Source: Crocosphaera sp. (GTDB lineage: Bacteria > Cyanobacteriota > Cyanobacteriia > Cyanobacteriales > Microcystaceae). From it: a stretch of DNA of 43,170 nucleotides. Under the pieces are notes generated by a model. The model was given only the letters and a program-made list of their open reading frames with translations. It was not told the origin of the DNA and searched no databases. The stretch spans positions 1 through 43,170 of the forward strand of contig NZ_JASJEB010000043.1 of the NCBI RefSeq assembly GCF_030064895.1, written 5' to 3'. Positions 2,738 through 14,029 of this stretch are shown here, piece by piece; positions within the stretch are counted from its first letter, which is position 1, and every line of letters starts with the position of its first letter. The translations under genes were made by a program, and so were the position numbers.

Positions 2738-3077
2738 TTAAGAGATACCTCCAGTAATTGAGTTGATAAAAAACTTGCTCAAGCTGCCTGTTTGGGGGCT
2801 CGTTTGGCTAAAAGTCCATAGAAAATAAGAAACGACTCTACTATGACTTTCCAAGCCATAAGAAAGGCTTAGTTGCCCCTTATTGGCTTGTGCCATTGAA
2901 ATCACTTTTTCTTTAACGATACTAAGATCAGACGATTGCATCATTGAGACTTGGCTTTTTCCTGTTCTATTGATAGAAATGGATTGAACGGATAATGCCC
3001 TATTAGATTATTACAGATTGTATAGACGATTCGTCAAATTATCCTCTAAAAAAAAAATAATTTTCTTATCAGCTAAT

Positions 3078-3103
3078 TAGATAGCTTGACTCGCTGCTAT
3101 CTA
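3078..3103. promoter_or_regulatory. Perfect 8-bp hairpin in the RRM/nblA intergenic region
   Basis: TAGATAGC (3078-3085) and GCTATCTA (3096-3103) pair perfectly around a 10-nt loop. On the minus strand the hairpin precedes a T10-like run about 20 nt later, in what would be the RRM gene leader. Confidence 0.35.
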
Positions 3104-3181
3104 TTATCCACTGTTTCTTGCCTAAAAGCTAGGGTTAAACTTTCTGTATATTGTTATCTTTTCAGTATATTTTTACCACTA

Positions 3182-3204
3182 TTGTTCACTTTGAGCAACT
3201 TTTT
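3182..3204 (+). terminator. Terminator-like hairpin upstream of nblA
   Basis: TTGTTC (3182-3187) and GAGCAA (3193-3198) pair with one wobble around ACTTT, and the stem is followed by CTTTTTG. No gene ends just before it on this strand, so it would terminate an unannotated short transcript, or it is a chance match. Confidence 0.3.
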
Positions 3205-3436
3205 GTTAAAAAACTTGCTAAAAATGATGTTGTGTGCATAGTCATGCAACTTGCCTGGGTACTCTAAAAACGAACAAGGAACTTTGACCCACAAGGATGA
3301 GTCACCGTATTTCACACACAAGGTAGACATTCTGTCAATTCTTTGTTACATTACTTTATTATTGAAGGTAAGTTATTGAATTAACTGCTCACTCAAGTAT
3401 TGCAACAGCAAATCTTTGATTAAATAAGGAGCCATT

Positions 3437-3601
3437 ATGGAAAACACTTCATGTAATTTAACATTAGAACAACAATTTGAAATGAAACGGATGCGTGATG
3501 CTGCCAACCAAATGAGTCGGGAGCAAGCATTAGATTTATTAATGCAAGCATCAAGATTACTAATGGTTAAAACCAATGTTATTCGCAATTTGGGCAAATA
3601 A
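3437..3601 (+). CDS. nblA: Phycobilisome degradation protein NblA (first copy)
   Basis: A 54-residue protein of the NblA family, small helical dimers that bind phycobiliproteins and the Clp protease adaptor machinery to trigger phycobilisome breakdown when nitrogen or another nutrient runs out. The family pattern is clear: LTLEQQFEMKRMRDAANQMS, then the REQALDLLMQASRLLMVKTNVIRNL helix with the usual central hydrophobic face and a C-terminal Asn-x-x-Arg-x-Leu. The ribosome-binding site AAGGAG ends 5 nt before the ATG. A second, diverged copy follows 56 nt downstream, matching the tandem arrangement seen in Synechocystis. The Cys at residue 6 is unusual for the family N-terminus. Confidence 0.93.
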   Translation: MENTSCNLTLEQQFEMKRMRDAANQMSREQALDLLMQASRLLMVKTNVIRNLGK

Positions 3602-3657
3602 CTCCTTTTTTAACCGTTAATACCGAGCTAATTTTTAATTAACATAGAGAGGTCATT

Positions 3658-3834
3658 ATGGACGCAAAAGCATTTGAATTGTCCCTAGAACAACAATTTC
3701 AACTCCAATGTTTACAAAAGGAGTTCCAAGACTTAGAAAGAGACCAAGTCATCGATTATTTAGTTGAGACAATGCAGCAAATCATGGCTAGAGACAATCT
3801 GATCAGAGATTTGATGAAAAACGAACTCTTCTAG
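3658..3834 (+). CDS. nblA: Phycobilisome degradation protein NblA (second copy)
   Basis: A 58-residue NblA: FELSLEQQFQLQCLQKEFQD followed by LERDQVIDYLVETMQQIMARDNLIRDLMKNELF, with the canonical SLEQQF start motif and the RDNLIRDLMK end motif. It has its own weak ribosome-binding site (GAGAGG) and is probably co-transcribed with the copy upstream. The two copies share only the family core, so this is an old duplication; in relatives the two act as a heterodimer. A hairpin with a T run at 3989-4009 is the likely transcript end. Confidence 0.95.
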   Translation: MDAKAFELSLEQQFQLQCLQKEFQDLERDQVIDYLVETMQQIMARDNLIRDLMKNELF

Positions 3835-3988
3835 TGTCTTTAGATTAGACATTCTCCATCTCGTGTCAAGCTTCTGCTTCATGAAACCTACACAAACCTA
3901 CACGGGTTTACTGCTCAGTCCCTATGTCGACCGATGTAGACGACTCCTTATAGTCCACAGGAGTTCATCGATAAGCTAACGGCGTTTT

Positions 3989-4009
3989 CAACAAATTATT
4001 GTTGTTTTT
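3989..4009 (+). terminator. Probable terminator of the nblA unit
   Basis: CAACAA (3989-3994) and TTGTTG (3999-4004) pair perfectly around ATTA and are followed by TTTTT. The stem is short and AT-rich, and it lies 155 nt beyond the second nblA stop codon. Confidence 0.5.
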
Positions 4010-4188
4010 CGAGATTAGTAACAGGTTTCTAGAACTTATTGATAGTTTCTTTCCTTTACTTTTTCCAGCTTGGTCTTCACTCATTTGAGGAAGGATAACC
4101 TGAGTAAGCCTCTGTTGTAACCGTAGTCATTCTAGCACTTAATTTCAAGGTAAGTCAATGTTTGACTGATAAAGGTTTGTTAATAAAG

Positions 4189-4207
4189 ACTAGACACTAG
4201 GTCTAGT
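4189..4207. repeat. ACTAGAC hairpin
   Basis: ACTAGAC (4189-4195) and GTCTAGT (4201-4207) pair perfectly around ACTAG. A T7 run starts 14 nt later, so it might act as a weak plus-strand terminator. Confidence 0.35.
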
Positions 4208-4327
4208 ATTGTAGAGATTTTTTTCTTGTAGAAAAAGCTATTATCTTCTACGCAAATGCAGAAGAGGGACAAGGGGTGTTGGGAGGTCAATCTATAGCTC
4301 GAGACTCTATGCTAAGGAAATGTTATT

Positions 4328-4654
4328 TTAATTTTTTCTTCGCCAAACCCGAAACATCAACCCCAAACAGACTAAAATGTAACCCGATGTGAGCAGGCCG
4401 TTAAAATATAGTAATCGGAATGTAAGTGTTTCCGATGTTTGTAAAGAGCTTAACCAGAGTAAGCTATAAGCTATTGCCCAAATAAAGGTTAGTTTGAGGG
4501 AAAAACGACTGGCCGACAATACTTTATTGCTCCCTTGATGATGGTAAACTGTCCAAAGCGCAGGAACCCAACCAACTACAGGGATAAGACGGGTTATTTG
4601 TGCTAACTTTTCTAGTTTTTGCTCTTGAAATGGATCATTATGGCGATTCTTCAT
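4328..4654 (-). CDS. Small three-helix membrane protein, function unknown
   Basis: A 108-residue protein with a charged N-terminus, then hydrophobic segments near residues 24-38, 52-70 and 79-101, ending in the basic FRVWRRKN. I recognise no family. It is divergent from mobA, whose start lies 60 nt away, so the two share a promoter region; that spacing suggests no functional link by itself. A location in the plasma or thylakoid membrane is inferred from the segments. Confidence 0.65.
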   Translation of the reverse strand: MKNRHNDPFQEQKLEKLAQITRLIPVVGWVPALWTVYHHQGSNKVLSASRFSLKLTFIWAIAYSLLWLSSLQTSETLTFRLLYFNGLLTSGYILVCLGLMFRVWRRKN

Positions 4655-4714
4655 TATTCTAGCCCTTAAATGATGGACAATTGATAAATAATTAATTGAT
4701 TATATTTTGATAAT

Positions 4715-5335
4715 ATGGAAACACCTTTGAAAAGGGATCTTAGTGCCATTATCCTTGCAGGAGGAAAAAGTTCTCGTATGGGTAAAGATAAAGCACTGAT
4801 AGAGATACAAGGTGTTCCCTTATTACAGCGTACTGCTACCTTTATTAAAGGATATGCTAACCCAGTTTATATTATTACCCCTTGGATAGAACGTTATCAA
4901 AGGATTGTTCCTGCAAACTGTCAGTTATTGCGAGAAAATTGTCCTTCTGGGAAAACTCAAGGTCCCTTAGTCGGATTCGCTCAAGCATTAGTTTATGTTA
5001 AGACAGAATGGGTTTTGTTGTTAGCCTGTGATTTACCTAATCTAACCATTCAAGCAGTAGAAGAATGGTTAAAACAGTTACAGAAAGTTGATGATCAGGC
5101 CATCGCTTGTTTACCCCGTCATCAAAAAGGATGGGAACCCTTGTCTGGGTTTTATCGTTCTTCGAGTTTAACTTCCTTAGATAGCTTTATTCAAGCAGGA
5201 GGGCGATCATTTCAACAATGGTTACAACTTCATTGTGTTCAAGAATTATTGGTGAGCGATCGCTCAGTTCTTTTTAATTGTAATACCCCGATGGATCTTA
5301 CAAGAGTGACATTCTCGCACGCTAACTACGTTTAG
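4715..5335 (+). CDS. mobA: Molybdenum cofactor guanylyltransferase
   Basis: MobA transfers GMP from GTP to molybdopterin-Mo, giving the guanine-dinucleotide cofactor used by enzymes such as nitrate reductase. The nucleotide-binding loop AIILAGGKSSRMGKDKALIE (residues 11-30) is complete, with the Lys that contacts GTP, and the metal-binding Asp lies in LLLACDLPNLT near 104-114. WEPLSGFYR is the usual downstream motif. The 206-residue length fits the family. The ATG has only a weak ribosome-binding site. No other moco gene is adjacent. Confidence 0.93.
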   Translation: METPLKRDLSAIILAGGKSSRMGKDKALIEIQGVPLLQRTATFIKGYANPVYIITPWIERYQRIVPANCQLLRENCPSGKTQGPLVGFAQALVYVKTEWVLLLACDLPNLTIQAVEEWLKQLQKVDDQAIACLPRHQKGWEPLSGFYRSSSLTSLDSFIQAGGRSFQQWLQLHCVQELLVSDRSVLFNCNTPMDLTRVTFSHANYV

Positions 5336-5414
5336 GGTACTTGACCATAGACATTTGAGTATTTTTTGTCTTAATATGGATGTACGATACGCCTGAATAG
5401 CGAGAAGAAGATTA

Positions 5415-5732
5415 ATGTCAACAGTAACCGAAAATGATCTCAAACGACTGGAGGAATTGATCAACAACCGTTTTGATCGCTTAGAAGAGGGACAAAAAGC
5501 TTTAGAAGAGGGACAAAAAGCTTTAGAGAAAGGACAAATAGAGATAAAAGAAAGATTAGCAGTCATCGAAACTCGTCAAGAAGACTGGAAACCATCCATT
5601 GACAAAATATCAGATTTAGCTGAAAAAGTCGGAGAATTAAAAAATTGGAGACAAATAGTAATTATCGCTATTACAGCAAGTATTAGTGGTGTTGTTGGTT
5701 GGGTACTTCGGGGAGGAACTTTTAAACCCTAA
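5415..5732 (+). CDS. Coiled-coil protein with C-terminal membrane anchor
   Basis: A 105-residue protein: residues 1-60 form a coiled coil, and a hydrophobic segment near 80-98 (IVIIAITASISGVVGWVLRGG) anchors the C-terminus. The centre holds three tandem 7-residue units, LEEGQKA, LEEGQKA and LEKGQIE. The first two come from an exact 21-base duplication (5481-5501 and 5502-5522) and the third is a diverged copy, so coil length changes in whole heptads. Such proteins are frequent in cyanobacteria; no function is known. The upstream gene mobA ends 79 nt before. Confidence 0.75.
   Translation: MSTVTENDLKRLEELINNRFDRLEEGQKALEEGQKALEKGQIEIKERLAVIETRQEDWKPSIDKISDLAEKVGELKNWRQIVIIAITASISGVVGWVLRGGTFKP
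5481..5543 (+). repeat. 21-bp tandem repeat encoding coiled-coil heptads
   Basis: Three 21-base units lie in frame; units one and two are identical and unit three has several substitutions. Each unit encodes one heptad of the coiled coil. Confidence 0.85.
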
Positions 5733-7334: not shown

Positions 7335-8120
7335 TTAAGCTCGAATGGTCTCTGATAGGTCTACACCCCTTAAGTTAGTTTGTTCTAGATTGGTTCCTAC
7401 TAAATTTGCTCCCCGTAGGTTGACTCCTTCTAGGTTGGCATAACTGAGATTAGCATAACTCAAATTTGCTCCTTGTAAACTCGCTCCTTGTAGGTTAGCG
7501 TGGGCTAAATTACTCCATCTTAAATCCAGGCGATCGCCTTTAATTTCTTGTAGATTGGCATGAACAAAATAACTATGACATAAATGGCATTGAATCAATT
7601 GTGCCTGAGATAAATTAGCTCGATAAAAATAAGATGATTGTAATTCAGCTTCATACAAACTAGCTTGGGAAAGATTGGCTTCACAAAAGTTAGTTTCTTG
7701 TCCATAAACTTCACTTAAGTTAGTACGATTGAGTTGAGCTTGACTAAAATTTGCTTTTTGGATTTGACTATTTCTTAGGGATGTTCCAATTAAATTTGCT
7801 TGATATAAATGAGCTTGAATTAAGTTACTTTGGCGTAGATTTGCTCCCATTAAGTTAGCTTGTTTGAGGTTGGCGTAACTGAGGTTTGCTGCGGTTAAGT
7901 TGGCCTGGTTTAGCTGTGCTTTTTCTAAGTTTGCCTGGATGAAATTGACTCTTTCTAAATTAGCTTTACTTAAATTAACTTGGCGAAAATTCCCTTGTTT
8001 AAGATTTTTTCCTCTTAGATCAATTTCTTGTAAATCTGGGCTAATTTGAGGGTTATTTTTTCGCCAAACCATCCATATATTTTCTTTTTCTAAGATTGCT
8101 AAATGTTCTTGATTGGCCAT
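7335..8120 (-). CDS. Pentapeptide-repeat protein
   Basis: A 261-residue protein. After a 30-residue head, residues 31-256 are about 45 consecutive pentapeptides of the A(N/D)LxX type (for example NLSKANLERVNFIQANLEKA), which fold into a right-handed quadrilateral beta-helix. There is no signal peptide, TM or enzymatic domain. Cyanobacterial genomes carry many such proteins and the function of most is unknown; DNA-mimic activity is known in a few family members but cannot be inferred here. A Uma2 gene starts divergently 168 nt away. Confidence 0.93.
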   Translation of the reverse strand: MANQEHLAILEKENIWMVWRKNNPQISPDLQEIDLRGKNLKQGNFRQVNLSKANLERVNFIQANLEKAQLNQANLTAANLSYANLKQANLMGANLRQSNLIQAHLYQANLIGTSLRNSQIQKANFSQAQLNRTNLSEVYGQETNFCEANLSQASLYEAELQSSYFYRANLSQAQLIQCHLCHSYFVHANLQEIKGDRLDLRWSNLAHANLQGASLQGANLSYANLSYANLEGVNLRGANLVGTNLEQTNLRGVDLSETIRA

Positions 8121-8288: not shown

Positions 8289-8834
8289 ATGTATAGTGTT
8301 GCTAAATGGTCAGTAGCAGATTATCACAAAATGATTGAGGCGGGAATTTTAAGCGATCGCAGTGTAGAATTAATCTCAGGAGAAATACTAGAAATGAGTC
8401 CAGAAGGTCCTTTTCACCACTATCTTAATATTAGTATTGTTGAGTATCTACGGTCACTGTTAGGAACAGAAGCTGTTATTAGTGAGGGACATCCTATTAC
8501 TTTAACTGACTCGGAACCAGAACCAGATATTGCTGTTGTTCGTTCCCCTTATAAATTGTATCTTAATCATCATCCTTACCCAGAAGATATTTACTGGTTA
8601 ATTGAAATTGCTGATAGCACTTTAGGCAAAGATTTAGGTATTAAAAAAACAATTTATGCTACCGCTAATATTCAAGAATATTGGGTAATTGCTCTCAATT
8701 CAAAAACATTAAAAGTCTTTCAATATCCTGAAAATAATGATTATAAAATCAAAAAAGACTATAATAGTGGTTTTGTTTCTCCCTTATCCTTTCCTGAAAT
8801 TAAAGTCTCTGTTAATACACTATTAGGAAATTAG
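8289..8834 (+). CDS. Uma2-family (DUF820) putative endonuclease, first copy
   Basis: A 181-residue protein with the Uma2/DUF820 layout: the WSVADYHKMIEAGIL start, VELISGEILEMSPEG (residues 26-40), EPEPDIAVVR near 77-86, and DIYWLIEIADSTLGKD near 99-114. The PD-(D/E)xK-like acidic residues, Asp in the EPDIAV stretch and Glu with downstream Lys in LIEIADS, are kept. The family is abundant in cyanobacteria and its function is unsettled. A close paralogue lies on the opposite strand at 9723-10277, with the sulfotransferase gene between. The sulfotransferase starts 7 nt after this stop, so the two are co-transcribed. Confidence 0.9.
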   Translation: MYSVAKWSVADYHKMIEAGILSDRSVELISGEILEMSPEGPFHHYLNISIVEYLRSLLGTEAVISEGHPITLTDSEPEPDIAVVRSPYKLYLNHHPYPEDIYWLIEIADSTLGKDLGIKKTIYATANIQEYWVIALNSKTLKVFQYPENNDYKIKKDYNSGFVSPLSFPEIKVSVNTLLGN

Positions 8835-9722: not shown

Positions 9723-10277
9723 CTATTCTAAAGCCATCAACTTTTTAACATCAATTTCTACTTTTGGGAAAGCAAGAGGATTGATAATTTCTTCTTGATA
9801 TGTTTTGGTGATTTTATAATCATCTGCTTGAGGATTTTGGAAAACGTATAATATTTTATTCTTAATATCAATTACCCAGTATTCAGTAATATTAAATTTA
9901 GCATATAAAGCCTTTTTGTCTATTAAATCTTTATTAAGGGTACTATCTGCAATTTCGATAAGCCAATAAATATCTTCAGGATAGGGATGACGATTAAGAT
10001 ATAAAGTATCTGGACTGCGAACAATGGTAATATCTGGTTCTGGTTCTGAATCTAATAATGTGATGGGATGAGATTCCATAATTTCTGCTTCATTGCCTAA
10101 AATTGATCGTAAGTATTTAACCCCTCGATGATTTAGAAAACGATGAAAGGTTTCTTCAGGACTCATTTCGATAATTTCTCCTGAAATTAATTCTACATGA
10201 TGATTATTGATAATTCCAGCTTCAATCATGCGGTGATAATCTTCTATTGTCCATTTCATTAAAGTGTATGTGGTCAT
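9723..10277 (-). CDS. Uma2-family (DUF820) putative endonuclease, second copy
   Basis: A 184-residue Uma2 protein with the same motifs as the copy at 8289-8834: WTIEDYHRMIEAGII, VELISGEIIEMSPEE, EPEPDITIVRSPDTLYLNRHPYPEDIYWLIEIADSTLNKD split over residues 78-114. The two copies look about two-thirds identical by eye and are arranged tail to tail around the sulfotransferase, whose stop is 8 nt from this one's stop on the other strand. It is the last gene of a possible minus-strand run that begins with the histidine kinase, with a 66-nt gap before it. Confidence 0.9.
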   Translation of the reverse strand: MTTYTLMKWTIEDYHRMIEAGIINNHHVELISGEIIEMSPEETFHRFLNHRGVKYLRSILGNEAEIMESHPITLLDSEPEPDITIVRSPDTLYLNRHPYPEDIYWLIEIADSTLNKDLIDKKALYAKFNITEYWVIDIKNKILYVFQNPQADDYKITKTYQEEIINPLAFPKVEIDVKKLMALE

Positions 10278-10343: not shown

Positions 10344-10709
10344 TTATTTATTTTGATCAACCTGAAAAAATGCTCCTAAAATTCCACCAAACCAACCTAA
10401 AGTAGTAAAAAATACGTTTTGCATAAAATCAGGTGTTGATTTATCTGGATAAACCAAAGAATAAATAAAGATAAAGACAAACGAAGTGATACACACCCCC
10501 ATTAATAGTTTGTTGATCTGAGTAATAATTCTAAGTTTTATTTCTCTCTCAGTAAGTTTTATTTCTTTCTCAGAAGGCTCCTCTGTATTAACTTCATTAA
10601 TCTCAATGATCCTAGTTGCATCAACATTGACTTTTTCTTGATTAAAATTAGTTTTACCTAACCAAATAAACCTAATATATTTAGAGAAAAACTCTGTTAA
10701 TTTATTCAT
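10344..10709 (-). CDS. Two-TM membrane protein in the kinase-protease unit
   Basis: A 121-residue protein, no recognised family. Residues 1-65 are polar and charged, with a Glu-rich stretch near 45-62. Hydrophobic segments follow at about 69-88 (LLMGVCITSFVFIFIYSLVY) and 97-115 (NVFFTTLGWFGGILGAFFQV), so the N-terminal part is probably cytoplasmic. Its ribosome-binding site AGGAGT overlaps the stop codon of the protease gene upstream, and the gap is 15 nt, which makes co-transcription and coupling very likely. Its role could be an effector or anchor for the protease; that is inference. Confidence 0.75.
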   Translation of the reverse strand: MNKLTEFFSKYIRFIWLGKTNFNQEKVNVDATRIIEINEVNTEEPSEKEIKLTEREIKLRIITQINKLLMGVCITSFVFIFIYSLVYPDKSTPDFMQNVFFTTLGWFGGILGAFFQVDQNK

Positions 10710-10724
10710 TATTTCCTATTACTC

Positions 10725-11138
10725 CTAACTAGAGGTATCACAAGATCCTGGACACTGATAAATCCATCTTTTCTCTTGTCCATCAAACATTACTTTATTT
10801 TGGTTAAGAATATCTCTACCAATTAGTCCATAGCTTTTAGGAGTAGCTATCACTTCAATATTAGAAAAGCTCTCATCTCCCAATCTAATATTAACAAAAT
10901 AAGTTGTTCTTTCAACAGTAGTATCGTTAACACCACGAACATTAACGGAACTATAGTTTAATCCACCTAGTTGTTTAATTTTTTTTTCTGGCAAACAAGT
11001 CATCACTGCTGCAGTATCAAAAATAGCATCAATATCTATCTTTTTTGAATCATCAGATGGGTTAAAGACTGTGATAACAGTATCTGGACTGGGTAAATCT
11101 TGATGTTGAAGATTTCCATATTTTCCTTTTATGGGCAT
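10725..11138 (-). CDS. Retropepsin-like aspartic protease
   Basis: A 137-residue protein of the single-lobe, dimer-forming retropepsin-like class (clan AA). The active-site motif is IFDTAAVMTCLP with Asp at residue 41, where the usual DTG or DSG is replaced by DTA; the hydrophobic partner motif LIGRDIL at 105-111 is the usual second signature. There is no signal peptide. The start is uncertain: in-frame TTG at 11204 would add 22 residues, while the ATG at 11138 begins MPIKGKYG; neither has a clear ribosome-binding site. The protein lies third in a four-gene unit after a histidine kinase and a receiver protein. The substrate is unknown. Confidence 0.82.
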   Translation of the reverse strand: MPIKGKYGNLQHQDLPSPDTVITVFNPSDDSKKIDIDAIFDTAAVMTCLPEKKIKQLGGLNYSSVNVRGVNDTTVERTTYFVNIRLGDESFSNIEVIATPKSYGLIGRDILNQNKVMFDGQEKRWIYQCPGSCDTSS

Positions 11139-11301
11139 GGGAATGATTTTGTGAAAAACTAAATATTCTTCATGATAAGACCACGAAGAATACCATGATA
11201 ACAATATTTCTAATGAAAATCAAAACCTTGTCTTAAGTCGTAAGTTAGACAATATTTTTTGATTATCAAATAAATTTCAAAACTGAGTTGTTATTAACAA
11301 T

Positions 11302-12045
11302 TTAGACTAGCTCATAATAGGGTAACTCAATGGTATCATTATATTGTTGAATTTTTTTTAAAAAACAGGATTCTTTAGGATGATGGTGTTGTAGTCGTTG
11401 AAGTAATTTTGTTTTATTCAAATCACTATCAATAATGTTTCCATTTAGAAAAGCAATATACTGACCTTTATATTGATTTAATGATTCCTTTGAATTAATC
11501 AAATTTTCATAAGCTTGAACATTAGGATCTAATTTTTTGTAAAGTTTTTCAAGTTCATCTCGAGTATCTTGTAAACCCGCTTCTAAAACTTGTTCATGGG
11601 CTTCTAAAACTCCAAGTGCATGCTTCAAAATTTCAGGTTCTATTTTACTACGAATAACTTCTTTTAAATCTGCTTGTTTGTGGATAAAACCATCAGCATT
11701 CAAGTTATTTGCAAGTGTTTCATATTGTTGATGAGCAGATAGAACAAACACAGGAATATTACTATTAATTCCTTTGATTTCTTCTAAAGCATTCAATCCT
11801 TCTTGTTCTCGACTTTCTCCCATGTGTACATCAAGAAGAAAAAAGTACGATTCTTGATCACCTGCTGGAGAAACTGTTGTTTGTGTCTTATCAATTAGAG
11901 AAACTGCTGTTTGTGTATTATCGATTAAGGTAACACGAAAATTCAACTCTTCTTCTAAAATATCTTTGACCGTGTTTTGAATTACACTATCATTTTCCAT
12001 TAAAATGACTTCTACTCTTGGTCTTGGAATCAAAGGAAAAACCAT
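11302..12045 (-). CDS. Receiver-domain protein with DUF5678-like C-terminus
   Basis: A 247-residue protein. Residues 11-135 form a receiver domain: acidic pocket E17 and D19, phospho-acceptor Asp in FFLLDVHMG (D72), and Lys in GFIHKQ (K123). Residues 41-60 contain a 10-residue tandem duplication (IDNTQTAVSL/IDKTQTTVSP) that pushes D72 about 15-20 places later than usual. Residues 140-176 form a coiled coil. Residues 178-232 (ENLINSKESLNQYKGQYIAF then LNGNIIDSD, LLQRLQHHHP) resemble the small DUF5678 domain; I call this with moderate confidence. No DNA-binding domain is present. A leader with GGAGG precedes the ATG, and the histidine kinase lies 175 nt upstream in the same direction. Confidence 0.82.
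   Translation of the reverse strand: MVFPLIPRPRVEVILMENDSVIQNTVKDILEEELNFRVTLIDNTQTAVSLIDKTQTTVSPAGDQESYFFLLDVHMGESREQEGLNALEEIKGINSNIPVFVLSAHQQYETLANNLNADGFIHKQADLKEVIRSKIEPEILKHALGVLEAHEQVLEAGLQDTRDELEKLYKKLDPNVQAYENLINSKESLNQYKGQYIAFLNGNIIDSDLNKTKLLQRLQHHHPKESCFLKKIQQYNDTIELPYYELV
11868..11927 (-). repeat. In-frame 30-bp tandem duplication in a receiver domain
   Basis: Two 30-base units, 11868-11897 and 11898-11927, differ at three positions. They encode the repeated DxTQTxVS segments before the phospho-acceptor Asp of the receiver protein, so the reading frame is kept. Confidence 0.9.
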
Positions 12046-12220
12046 TTTAAAACCTCCTTAAAAATAGAGAAACTAAGTTTATATAAGTAGTTAGACAAAG
12101 TTAACATGAACTATGAAATCAATGAACAGGAAATAAGCACAAGACAATAGTTTAAGCTTAATTGATCTGACACTTGCCAACACAAAATCTTCTATCTATG
12201 ACTACTGATAACACATTTTC

Positions 12221-14029
12221 CTAAGATTTTGTTGTTATGTAACGTCTCAGAGGGATTTTAACATAAAATTTACTTCCTTTTCCAATTGTAGAATTAAAAT
12301 AGATTTTCCCACCATATTGATTTAGTATTTGCCGCACAACATATAGACCTAATCCCGTACCGCCTTCACTTTTTTTCGTTGTAAATCCTTTCTCATATAC
12401 TCGCTCACCAATATCATTACTAATCCCTATTCCATTATCTTCAATAGTAATTAAGATATATTCAATTGTTTGCGACCTGTCAATACAGGTTTCAATGGAA
12501 ATCTCTCCTTTTTTGGGTGCGGCTTTATGAATAGCTTTTTCAGCATTAGTCAGCAAATTGAAAATAATATGTTTGATTTTTCTCTCATCAATAGCAATAA
12601 CAGGAATTGTATCATCAGATTTTAGATTAACTTCAATGTCTAAATTACTTAAGTCAAACCAAAAATTTTGAATAACTTCTTTGATGGCTACATTAACATT
12701 AACAGAAATAGGTTCATCTGTTTTTAAGTCATTAATTACTTCTTTAATACGTCGATTGATAAACTGCATTTGTTTTTCAATTAAATCTCTATTTCTATTG
12801 CTTAGATTACCATTATGAACTAATTTTTGACAAACCTGATAAAAGTTAATTAATTCGGTTTTGTATTGATGTAAAATCCTATGAGATAAATTATCAATAC
12901 TTATCAAAAGAGATATATTTCGCTGATTATTAAGCATTTCATTGATTTTTTTGAGTATATGAATAATTTTTACCCTAGAAATAATTGCTGCTGTTAAAAA
13001 GGCGATTTGCTCTAGAAAATTTTTATGATCTTGATAAAATTTGTGTTTATATTGGGTATAAACAGATATAGTTCCAACGCATTCATCTTGGACATATAAA
13101 GGAAGACAAGCAATAGATTTAAGATGATTATTTTTAATCCATTCTTGATTATTAAATCTTTTGATTTCAAACTCATTAATATCCTCAATATATATAGGCT
13201 TTTGGCTTTCATAAACTTGTCCAACAATCTTACTTCCCGCTTTCACAGAACCATCTTTTCTTCCTTCCCAAGAAATATTATGAGTGCTAGATCCAATTTT
13301 AAGATATAAATCATTGTTGTCATCAGGAATACGAATAATACATACTTGATAAGGCAAAAAATCTGCTGTTAAACTTTTTCCAACTAGATCATAAACTTCT
13401 TGTAAATTAAAGTTTCTTTGGGAACGTTCTAACTCAACTAATTTTTTAATTAATCTTTTATCAATGCCTAAAGATTGTTTTTGCTTAAATAAAGAAATAA
13501 AATCAGCAACCACTCTACCAATCATCATTAACCAATAAACATCTTCTCGTTTAAATCTTTTTGATTTTCTTTTATTAAAAACTGTAAGGGTACCAAAGGT
13601 TCGATAGGAACCATTTAGAGGAACTGAAATTCCGCACTTTAATTCACCTAATTTTTCTTTATACAAATCTCCATTTACCATTGAATATTCCTTCTCAAGG
13701 TTATTAGAATATTGGGGATCTCCATGACCATACTCAGCATCATAAGGAGGAATAGCTTTTCCTGAAAAACTTTCTCCTGGTAGATATTGTTCATCAGGAA
13801 ACCAGGAATTATCTATTTTATTTCCATCTTTATCAATGCCATCAATTCCTATTCGTTTAATTATGCCATCTTTAGAAAACAAAAATAAAGAAGCAACTTG
13901 AACATTCAATTGTTTACGAACTTCAGCTAATGCCATCCTAACAACTTCATCAATACTCTGACAGTGCGTTAAATTCTTACTAATATCATTGAGATTTTTT
14001 AATTCTTGACGAAGTTCTTCAGTGTTCAT
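12221..14029 (-). CDS. GAF-GAF sensor histidine kinase
   Basis: A 602-residue protein without TM segments, so probably cytosolic. GAF-type sensor domains occupy about 19-180 and 207-352. A helical dimerisation region follows at 355-435 with a candidate phospho-His in DNLSHRILHQ (H383), which is not a typical HisKA H-box (no HE pair). The ATPase part is complete: N-box NLLTNAEKAI (491-500), G1 DNGIGI (531-536), F-box-like KGFTTKK (547-553), and G2 GGTGLGL (556-562). The ligand of the GAF domains is unknown; neither shows the Cys needed for a bilin. It is the first gene of a minus-strand run with the receiver protein, the protease and the TM protein, and its likely partner is the receiver. Confidence 0.9.
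   Translation of the reverse strand: MNTEELRQELKNLNDISKNLTHCQSIDEVVRMALAEVRKQLNVQVASLFLFSKDGIIKRIGIDGIDKDGNKIDNSWFPDEQYLPGESFSGKAIPPYDAEYGHGDPQYSNNLEKEYSMVNGDLYKEKLGELKCGISVPLNGSYRTFGTLTVFNKRKSKRFKREDVYWLMMIGRVVADFISLFKQKQSLGIDKRLIKKLVELERSQRNFNLQEVYDLVGKSLTADFLPYQVCIIRIPDDNNDLYLKIGSSTHNISWEGRKDGSVKAGSKIVGQVYESQKPIYIEDINEFEIKRFNNQEWIKNNHLKSIACLPLYVQDECVGTISVYTQYKHKFYQDHKNFLEQIAFLTAAIISRVKIIHILKKINEMLNNQRNISLLISIDNLSHRILHQYKTELINFYQVCQKLVHNGNLSNRNRDLIEKQMQFINRRIKEVINDLKTDEPISVNVNVAIKEVIQNFWFDLSNLDIEVNLKSDDTIPVIAIDERKIKHIIFNLLTNAEKAIHKAAPKKGEISIETCIDRSQTIEYILITIEDNGIGISNDIGERVYEKGFTTKKSEGGTGLGLYVVRQILNQYGGKIYFNSTIGKGSKFYVKIPLRRYITTKS

Follow-up and report, generated by a model that had tools for sequence, protein, structure and literature searches.

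A stretch of Crocosphaera sp. DNA (contig NZ_JASJEB010000043.1, positions 1-43,170; the whole stretch is hereafter the window and is contig C37 of a 5.5 Mb genome, G000) carries a cassette of four minus-strand genes. They encode a histidine kinase, a receiver protein with a DUF5678-like tail, a retropepsin and a small membrane protein. We read the four genes as one pathway, a two-component system with a membrane-tethered retropepsin output that is gated through DUF5678, and we give this reading a probability of about 0.55. As a conserved unit with a domain-fusion argument for its wiring, the cassette stands as a variant of two-component signaling. To our knowledge, the outputs of response regulators are mostly DNA-binding domains or nucleotide enzymes. 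If our reading is correct, response regulators would have a new class of output, a phosphorelay coupled to a dedicated retropepsin; bacterial retropepsins would gain a testable switch, and DUF5678 would gain a role as a retropepsin partner domain. The proteins are small and soluble or close to soluble, which makes binding, phosphotransfer and cleavage open to direct tests.

The list of open reading frames (ORFs) contains the four minus-strand genes in a row that an initial annotation of the window had described. The first gene (12221-14029, minus strand) encodes a cytosolic GAF-GAF histidine kinase of 602 amino acids (aa). Pfam matched two GAF domains (5e-20) and HATPase_c (1e-24; the ATPase domain spans residues 481-595). 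No HisKA-type family was listed for the kinase at E ≤ 1, so its H-box is atypical, as had been proposed for this soluble kinase. The canonical H-box reads H-E-x-x-N/T-P. The cassette kinases retain neither the acidic residue that follows H nor the P, but an N or T four residues past H387 (codon 12869-12871) is kept in the five operon kinases whose letters were read. This N/T position has been linked to phosphatase activity in other kinases. H387, Y389, K390, E392, L393 and I394 are invariant in 6/6 operon kinases, as are N491, N495, G533, G535, G557 and G559; the other five kinases share 44-51% identity with that of the window. By sequence, the protein has the phosphorylatable histidine and the intact N, G1 and G2 boxes of a two-component kinase.

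The response regulator gene (11302-12045, minus strand) encodes a receiver (about 11653-12009), a variable linker and a probable C-terminal DUF5678 domain (about 11380-11481). The receiver matched Response_reg in Pfam at 1e-10. E17, D72 (codon 11830-11832) and K123 are invariant in all six operon receivers, and the sequence has the phosphoacceptor aspartate, acidic pocket and lysine of a receiver. Linker length is highly variable, and the receivers of the five relatives are 26-35% identical to the window receiver. The window tail matched the Pfam DUF5678 model (PF18929) at 7.9e-4 with 19.6 bits, which is under the 23.2-bit cut-off, and a related tail in Xenococcus scored 29.1 bits with the same model. 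When the tails of five operon receivers were compared by profile with the stand-alone DUF5678 proteins of eight other loci (L119-L126, below), the match had a probability of 97.6 (E 2.8e-12). This supports the weak window match and agrees with the DUF5678-like tail of the initial annotation. The best result of a profile comparison between DUF5678 and solved structures had an E value of 0.19.

The retropepsin gene (10725-11138, minus strand) encodes a single-lobe protease of 137 aa from ATG 11138. This ATG is the most likely start, judging by relatives that start at the matching position; TTG 11204 is an alternative. Counted from the ATG, the catalytic aspartate is D41 (codon 11016-11018), as previously numbered, and it is kept in the four aligned operon proteases. 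Identity to the window protease is 33-40% in three aligned relatives. Pfam matched Asp_protease_2 (1.2e-7) and RVP, both above cut-off, and the protease profile matched the solved HTLV-1 protease (2.3e-7), with the Ddi1 family at 0.0016 and weaker. The family profile and a D-T/S-x motif in one lobe place the protein, by sequence, among the A2-like retropepsins of clan AA, in agreement with the predicted single-lobe protease with a DTA active site. According to the accessible text of one paper, retropepsins are homodimers in which each chain supplies one aspartate, and few bacterial retropepsins have been characterized (PMC12239564).

The last gene (10344-10709, minus strand) encodes a small membrane protein of 121 aa, with an N-terminal stretch, a variable linker, a transmembrane (TM) segment and a C-terminal hydrophobic motif around FFTTLGWFGG. 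No family in Pfam or NCBIfam matched it. The protein had been described as having two TM segments. By hydropathy, the first is clear (residues 68-86), and the second is weak (99-117) and falls under the 1.4 Kyte-Doolittle cut in 3/5 other proteins scanned. The protein is conserved in all operon loci, with 20-44% identity between the window protein and those of five relatives, and its C-terminal motif departs in locus L057. As the initial annotation had noted, the Shine-Dalgarno-like stretch of this gene, TTAGGAGT (10721-10728, minus strand), overlaps the protease stop codon (10725-10727). The TM and protease genes themselves overlap in two other loci (L059 and L061) and are 6-48 bases apart in three (L096, L109 and L057).

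The same gene order was found in six genomes including that of the window, which belong to four families by their assigned labels. The five other genomes share the cassette at about 20-51% protein identity. A receiver search detected it in a second Crocosphaera (G004, locus L010: kinase 3054-4916, receiver 2224-2961, protease 1775-2206, TM 1376-1726, all on the minus strand) and in Microcystis aeruginosa (L023: 4260-6086, 6123-7094, 7122-7598 and TM about 7573-7911, in cassette order). A protease-led scan of genome contigs, which returned five loci, gave the full order in a Prochloraceae metagenome-assembled genome (L059: 4906-6702, 6709-7527, 7651-8037, 8021-8401). Order-level profile searches with the kinase and the TM protein, each of 388 genomes, gave another full unit (L096: 960-2765, 2802-3677, 3704-4126, 4133-4480). 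The fifth case is split over two contig ends: the kinase (L098) ends about 450 bases from one contig end, the receiver, protease and TM genes (L109) begin roughly 460 bases from another contig's end, and the halves presumably adjoin. The four genes therefore recur in order in five other genomes, and the protease and TM genes are not mostly found alone. The fusions that the initial annotation proposed to look for were also found, as protease-TM, DUF5678-retropepsin and GAF-GAF-DUF5678 proteins.

The TM profile matched 11 places in 9/388 genomes, five of which were the profile's own rows. Three of the six further matches (L096, L109, L097) lie directly behind a retropepsin, and two are remnants, one at the window's site (L112) and one beside kinase remnants (L111). 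The GAF-GAF profile of the kinase matched 23 places in 20/388 genomes; the GAF-GAF sensor is common to other systems, and the TM protein hardly is. At E ≤ 1e-8, the receiver matched in 11/386 genomes of the phylum, and two of these matches were cassette receivers (G000, G380); two of the other nine were read (L014, L015) and both are ordinary regulators. At E ≤ 1e-6, 9/50 genomes of the family matched, five of them with cassette receivers or their remains (G000, G004, G007, G380, G010). Two other GAF-GAF loci had features of their own. In one (L099), a GAF-GAF sensor without a kinase (4125-5627) adjoins a 190-aa protein (3488-4060) that has an HEYGHH motif but matched nothing in Pfam; the two may form a sensor-metalloprotease pair. 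In the other (L101), DUF1822 is on the same chain as the GAF-GAF sensor.

The association of DUF5678 with retropepsins extends beyond the cassette. The Pfam DUF5678 model gave 23 matches in 20/146 cyanobacterial genomes and none in 14 control genomes. DUF5678 was fused to or beside a retropepsin in 14/23 matches, a count made with a retropepsin profile built partly from seven of those 23 loci. In 11 matches, a single predicted ORF of 178-230 aa encodes DUF5678 and then the retropepsin. In L031, both are in one open frame and the predicted start falls between them, and in L030 and L042 they are overlapping or adjacent genes. Pfam independently detected both domains in the two fused proteins submitted (L028, L036). 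The operon-type retropepsin profile matched 55/195 genomes at E ≤ 1e-5. Thirty of these loci were stored, of which four (L115-L118) are the model's own; two middling matches in G467 are among those without a stored locus. At the next eight loci (L119-L126, E 5e-19 to 4e-13), a DUF5678 gene was directly upstream on the same strand in 8/8, separated from the retropepsin gene by -1 to 61 bases. Pfam detected DUF5678 in the five of these eight upstream proteins that were submitted (E 2e-6 to 0.04). At the 18 weaker loci (L127-L144), there was no DUF5678 gene within the stored 1.5 kb or so on each side. Judged from sequence, the fusions and the gene pairing establish DUF5678 as a partner domain of retropepsins, and the DUF5678-retropepsin family is the wider find behind the cassette.

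Several fusions join the same parts in other ways. In Xenococcus PCC 7305 (L058/L108), a pentapeptide-DUF5678 gene is followed by a 243-aa chain with the retropepsin first and an operon-type TM segment last. In a genome of another genus of the window's family (G010, L056/L114), a GAF-GAF-DUF5678 protein of 509 aa lacks both a kinase and a receiver, and the genes after it encode a retropepsin and a membrane protein (111 aa) that belongs to another family. Signal input may thus attach directly to DUF5678, as expected if DUF5678 were the protease's control handle. A second receiver with DUF5678 has a different output, in a receiver-DUF5678-AlbA_2 (Schlafen-type) fusion of another cyanobacterium (L045, 1060-2112). 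Fused ORFs with odd orders (L011, 6739-8166; L097, 3477-5273) look like the result of in-frame deletions.

A number of related proteins were seen during these searches. Pentapeptide-repeat proteins with a C-terminal retropepsin occur in L010 (227-1330), L009 (7875-8978) and L011 (8931-9845). Their catalytic D reads N or S-E (NTGA, NTDA, NSEA), and they are perhaps inactive pseudo-proteases; 2/3 have a DUF5678-like middle part. In three genomes (L058, 3336-4034; L009, 7169-7897; L011, 8237-8938), a protein of 232-242 aa is encoded between the cassette genes and a gene for either a pentapeptide-DUF5678 or a pentapeptide-retropepsin protein; the L058 copy, the one searched, had no Pfam family. 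A second small membrane protein family adjoins DUF5678-retropepsin genes in two genomes (L042, 2240-2551; L114, 4299-4634), once on the opposite strand. With the operon-type retropepsin profile at E ≤ 1e-5, the window genome gave a single match besides the cassette protease, a TPR-retropepsin that has a protein kinase gene next to it (L167, 1954-3306; G000:C103, 13000-17000).

We propose that the cytosolic GAF-GAF kinase senses a small molecule or a state and would autophosphorylate at H387. The phosphate would then pass to D72 of the receiver, both residues being conserved, and the receiver's DUF5678 would bind the retropepsin and set its activity. Receiver dimerization would be a natural switch because retropepsins need two chains for one active site, and the simplest option is an induced-proximity gate in which the dimer joins two protease chains. 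The TM protein would tether the protease at the inner membrane, where its substrate should lie. The protease-TM fusion of Xenococcus supports this tether, and it favors the suggestion in the initial annotation that the protease is anchored by the TM protein. The cassette would be an accessory system that is easily lost. In support of this mechanism are the order in six genomes of four families, the DUF5678 pairings, the fusions, the second receiver-DUF5678 protein (L045) and the conserved catalytic residues. The earlier suggestion of a phosphorelay that controls the protease, with a link to the TM protein, gains comparative support from the order in the five other genomes and from the DUF5678-retropepsin, protease-TM and GAF-GAF-DUF5678 fusions.

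Several observations weigh against this mechanism. The active site in the window reads DTAA, not DTGA. Two of the intergenic gaps, at 175 and 163 bases, are wide. A terminator-like stem (11162-11194) precedes the protease ATG and follows the alternative TTG start. A promoter scan gave 32 sites compared to 21.2 (sd 4.7) in shuffled sequences and two terminator-like sites compared to 1.2, and such counts are not informative in AT-rich DNA. Neither a retropepsin nor DUF5678 was found in the fetched stretches of 8/8 inspected non-operon GAF-GAF loci (L099-L104, L106, L107; matches in G023, G335 and G380:C218 were outside this set), and the GAF-GAF sensor was therefore rejected as a marker of the cassette. 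One TM homologue of 194 aa (L110) is an orphan. Nine of the 23 DUF5678 matches have no adjoining retropepsin; by eye, six of these resemble truncated fusions (L026, L027, L029, L034, L041, L046) and three do not (L043, L044, L045). Also, we infer phosphotransfer, DUF5678-protease binding, dimer activation, proteolysis, tethering and a substrate from sequence.

Some of these observations could be explained by co-transcription, with an ordinary stress two-component system sitting beside a retropepsin pair and the protease not directly controlled by the receiver. The wide gaps in the window and the pairing of GAF-GAF sensors with other partners fit this, but it is very improbable since the order is retained at low identity in six genomes of four families and the same parts have fused independently several times. 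Another possible explanation, which we regard as doubtful, is that DUF5678 is an inhibitor. The retropepsin would be held silent as in a toxin-antitoxin pair until a kinase signal releases it, and receiver-DUF5678 would be a signal-controlled antitoxin. A gate that works by inhibition and release is of equal simplicity to activation by dimerization. The small partner is upstream in all eight two-gene loci, and antitoxin-first is the usual gene order of toxin-antitoxin systems. Furthermore, the DUF5678 protein upstream of one retropepsin (L126, 961-1455) has a weak N-terminal match (E 2.8e-4, 21.0 bits, cut-off 27.9) to UPF0175, which we take to be an antitoxin family. However, a similar-looking protein in L119 had no UPF0175 match at E ≤ 0.05, and DUF5678 and the retropepsin are in one chain or open frame in 12/23 matches, which is unusual for antitoxins. 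The antitoxin reading draws on gene order and sequence, and the toxicity is putative.

The TM protein could instead be the substrate. The protease would clip its variable linker and free or activate a membrane-disrupting C-terminal segment, much like a gasdermin. The TM gene is directly behind or overlaps the protease gene in the operons, and its product combines the variable linker with a conserved glycine-rich C-terminal motif. We find this role unlikely: the Xenococcus chain joins this TM segment to the protease, which favors an anchor, the second hydrophobic stretch is weak and the cleavage is putative. Our preferred reading thus keeps the TM protein as a tether. A broader proposal, also improbable in our view, is that DUF5678-retropepsin pairs are widespread, undescribed effector proteases of cyanobacteria. 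Here they would be wired to a phosphorelay, and receiver dimerization would activate a virus-type protease tethered to the membrane through induced proximity. The protease would kill or arrest the cell, a bacterial counterpart of retropepsin-based death-complex proteases.

The history of the site was examined by comparing the window proteins with the corresponding site of each relative (tblastn). A flanking methyltransferase gene is present in 9/9 genomes of the genus. Within the genus, the complete cassette is at this site in the window only, and remains are found in five of eight relatives. The second Crocosphaera, G004, retains the TM protein and a fusion of kinase residues 1-475 with the protease, without the ATPase domain and receiver; it also has its complete cassette elsewhere. 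Four others (G005, G002, G003, G008) have fragments. G001 and G006 showed no trace of the cassette at the site at E ≤ 0.01, and in G007 the stretch stops at a contig end before the other flank. Elsewhere, G007 has a cassette with a broken kinase: its N-terminal part is absent next to transposase-like ORFs, and a stop interrupts the rest. The ratio of nonsynonymous to synonymous substitution rates between the window and the G004 partial copy was 0.27 (GAF domains), 0.42 (H-box region), 0.55 (protease) and 0.47 (TM protein), compared to 0.07 and 0.23 for two flanking genes. The higher cassette values may reflect decay of the G004 copy. The cassette is probably old at this site and was probably lost repeatedly. 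Since five of eight relatives keep only wreckage, it appears dispensable or costly, and repeated loss is consistent with a function that is costly or needed only in some situations, such as defense, and also with plain niche-dependent signaling. Spread on phages or plasmids was not supported: none of 80 stretches that matched patterns in a viral-contig scan was a receiver-DUF5678 relative, and the window receiver had no tblastn match among 72,556 plasmid records.

Ten neighbors, picked by eye and without a control set, were compared with PADLOC models. The models matched type II methyltransferases near L010 (together with a restriction-enzyme-like gene), near L109 and, as a fragment, near L009, and a CbiT-like methyltransferase matched the methylase-containing mad2 model. 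In the window, a sulfotransferase gene near the cassette lies between two Uma2-type paralogues that share 62% identity (8289-8834 and 9723-10277); the second paralogue, which adjoins the cassette, matches the PADLOC candidate family PDC-S03 (7e-17). The sulfotransferase, an NTPase near L059 and two others among the ten had no PADLOC match. These neighbors are a lead that, like the patchy presence of the cassette and its decay at the window's site, is compatible with defense and not evidence for it. A phage-defense role, raised in the initial annotation, is possible and unproved. Among PADLOC-DB models, the cassette proteins reached at best a partial match with an E value of 0.0054, and the matches to PtuB1 (0.0054), LmuB (0.0082) and PDC-M58A (0.033) were rejected as weak and partial.

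The initial annotation had likened the cassette to Detocs, which, in the accessible text, consists of the kinase DtcA, the buffer receiver DtcB and the response regulator DtcC (PMC11728103). Both pair a histidine kinase with a response regulator that has a non-DNA output. However, neither the window nor any of the four unsplit relatives has a separate buffer receiver, and the effector differs. Membership in Detocs was rejected since this three-gene make-up is absent, with only one receiver gene in the window, L010, L023, L059 and L096. The four proteins had no Detocs-named PADLOC match at E ≤ 1, and the presence of Detocs in that release was not checked. Cyanobacterial conflict systems with effector-associated domains are likewise accessory systems, and they too contain peptidase effectors, receivers and GAF domains (PMC7159879, PMC8195603). 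In the main text of these papers, as far as accessible, the words retropepsin, aspartic and aspartyl are absent, and the 2020 paper, one of the two, has no histidine kinase among the vWA-associated effectors in the part available. Our literature search found no description of DUF5678 function or of a retropepsin paired with DUF5678 and a two-component system, with most subscription papers and preprints outside the search; the pairing appears to be undescribed.

Known bacterial retropepsins and regulated proteases each share part of this design. SpoIIGA of Bacillus is a membrane-bound, signal-activated aspartic protease, a polytopic chain with its own membrane domain. Like the cassette, it is a signal-switched aspartic protease at the membrane; unlike the cassette, it is one chain without a receiver or DUF5678. 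It is set apart by this description, and the window protease had no SpoIIGA-family Pfam match at E ≤ 1. RssB and CpdR are response regulators that control proteolysis with ClpXP. RssB is described as the adaptor of RpoS and CpdR as a protease chaperone in the accessible text of PMC12974527. The clan AA proteins RimB and Rlo of Pseudomonas and APRc of Rickettsia have one lobe and D-T plus a small residue, like the window protease; the Rlo proteins carry signal peptides, and the accessible text describes no DUF5678, receiver or kinase partner for any of the three (PMC12239564). As in the cassette, RssB and CpdR are receiver proteins without a DNA-binding output that steer a protease. With RssB and CpdR, the protease is a cell-wide AAA+ enzyme to which the regulator delivers substrates, whereas the cassette has a dedicated retropepsin in its own operon and a regulator that carries the protease's partner domain.

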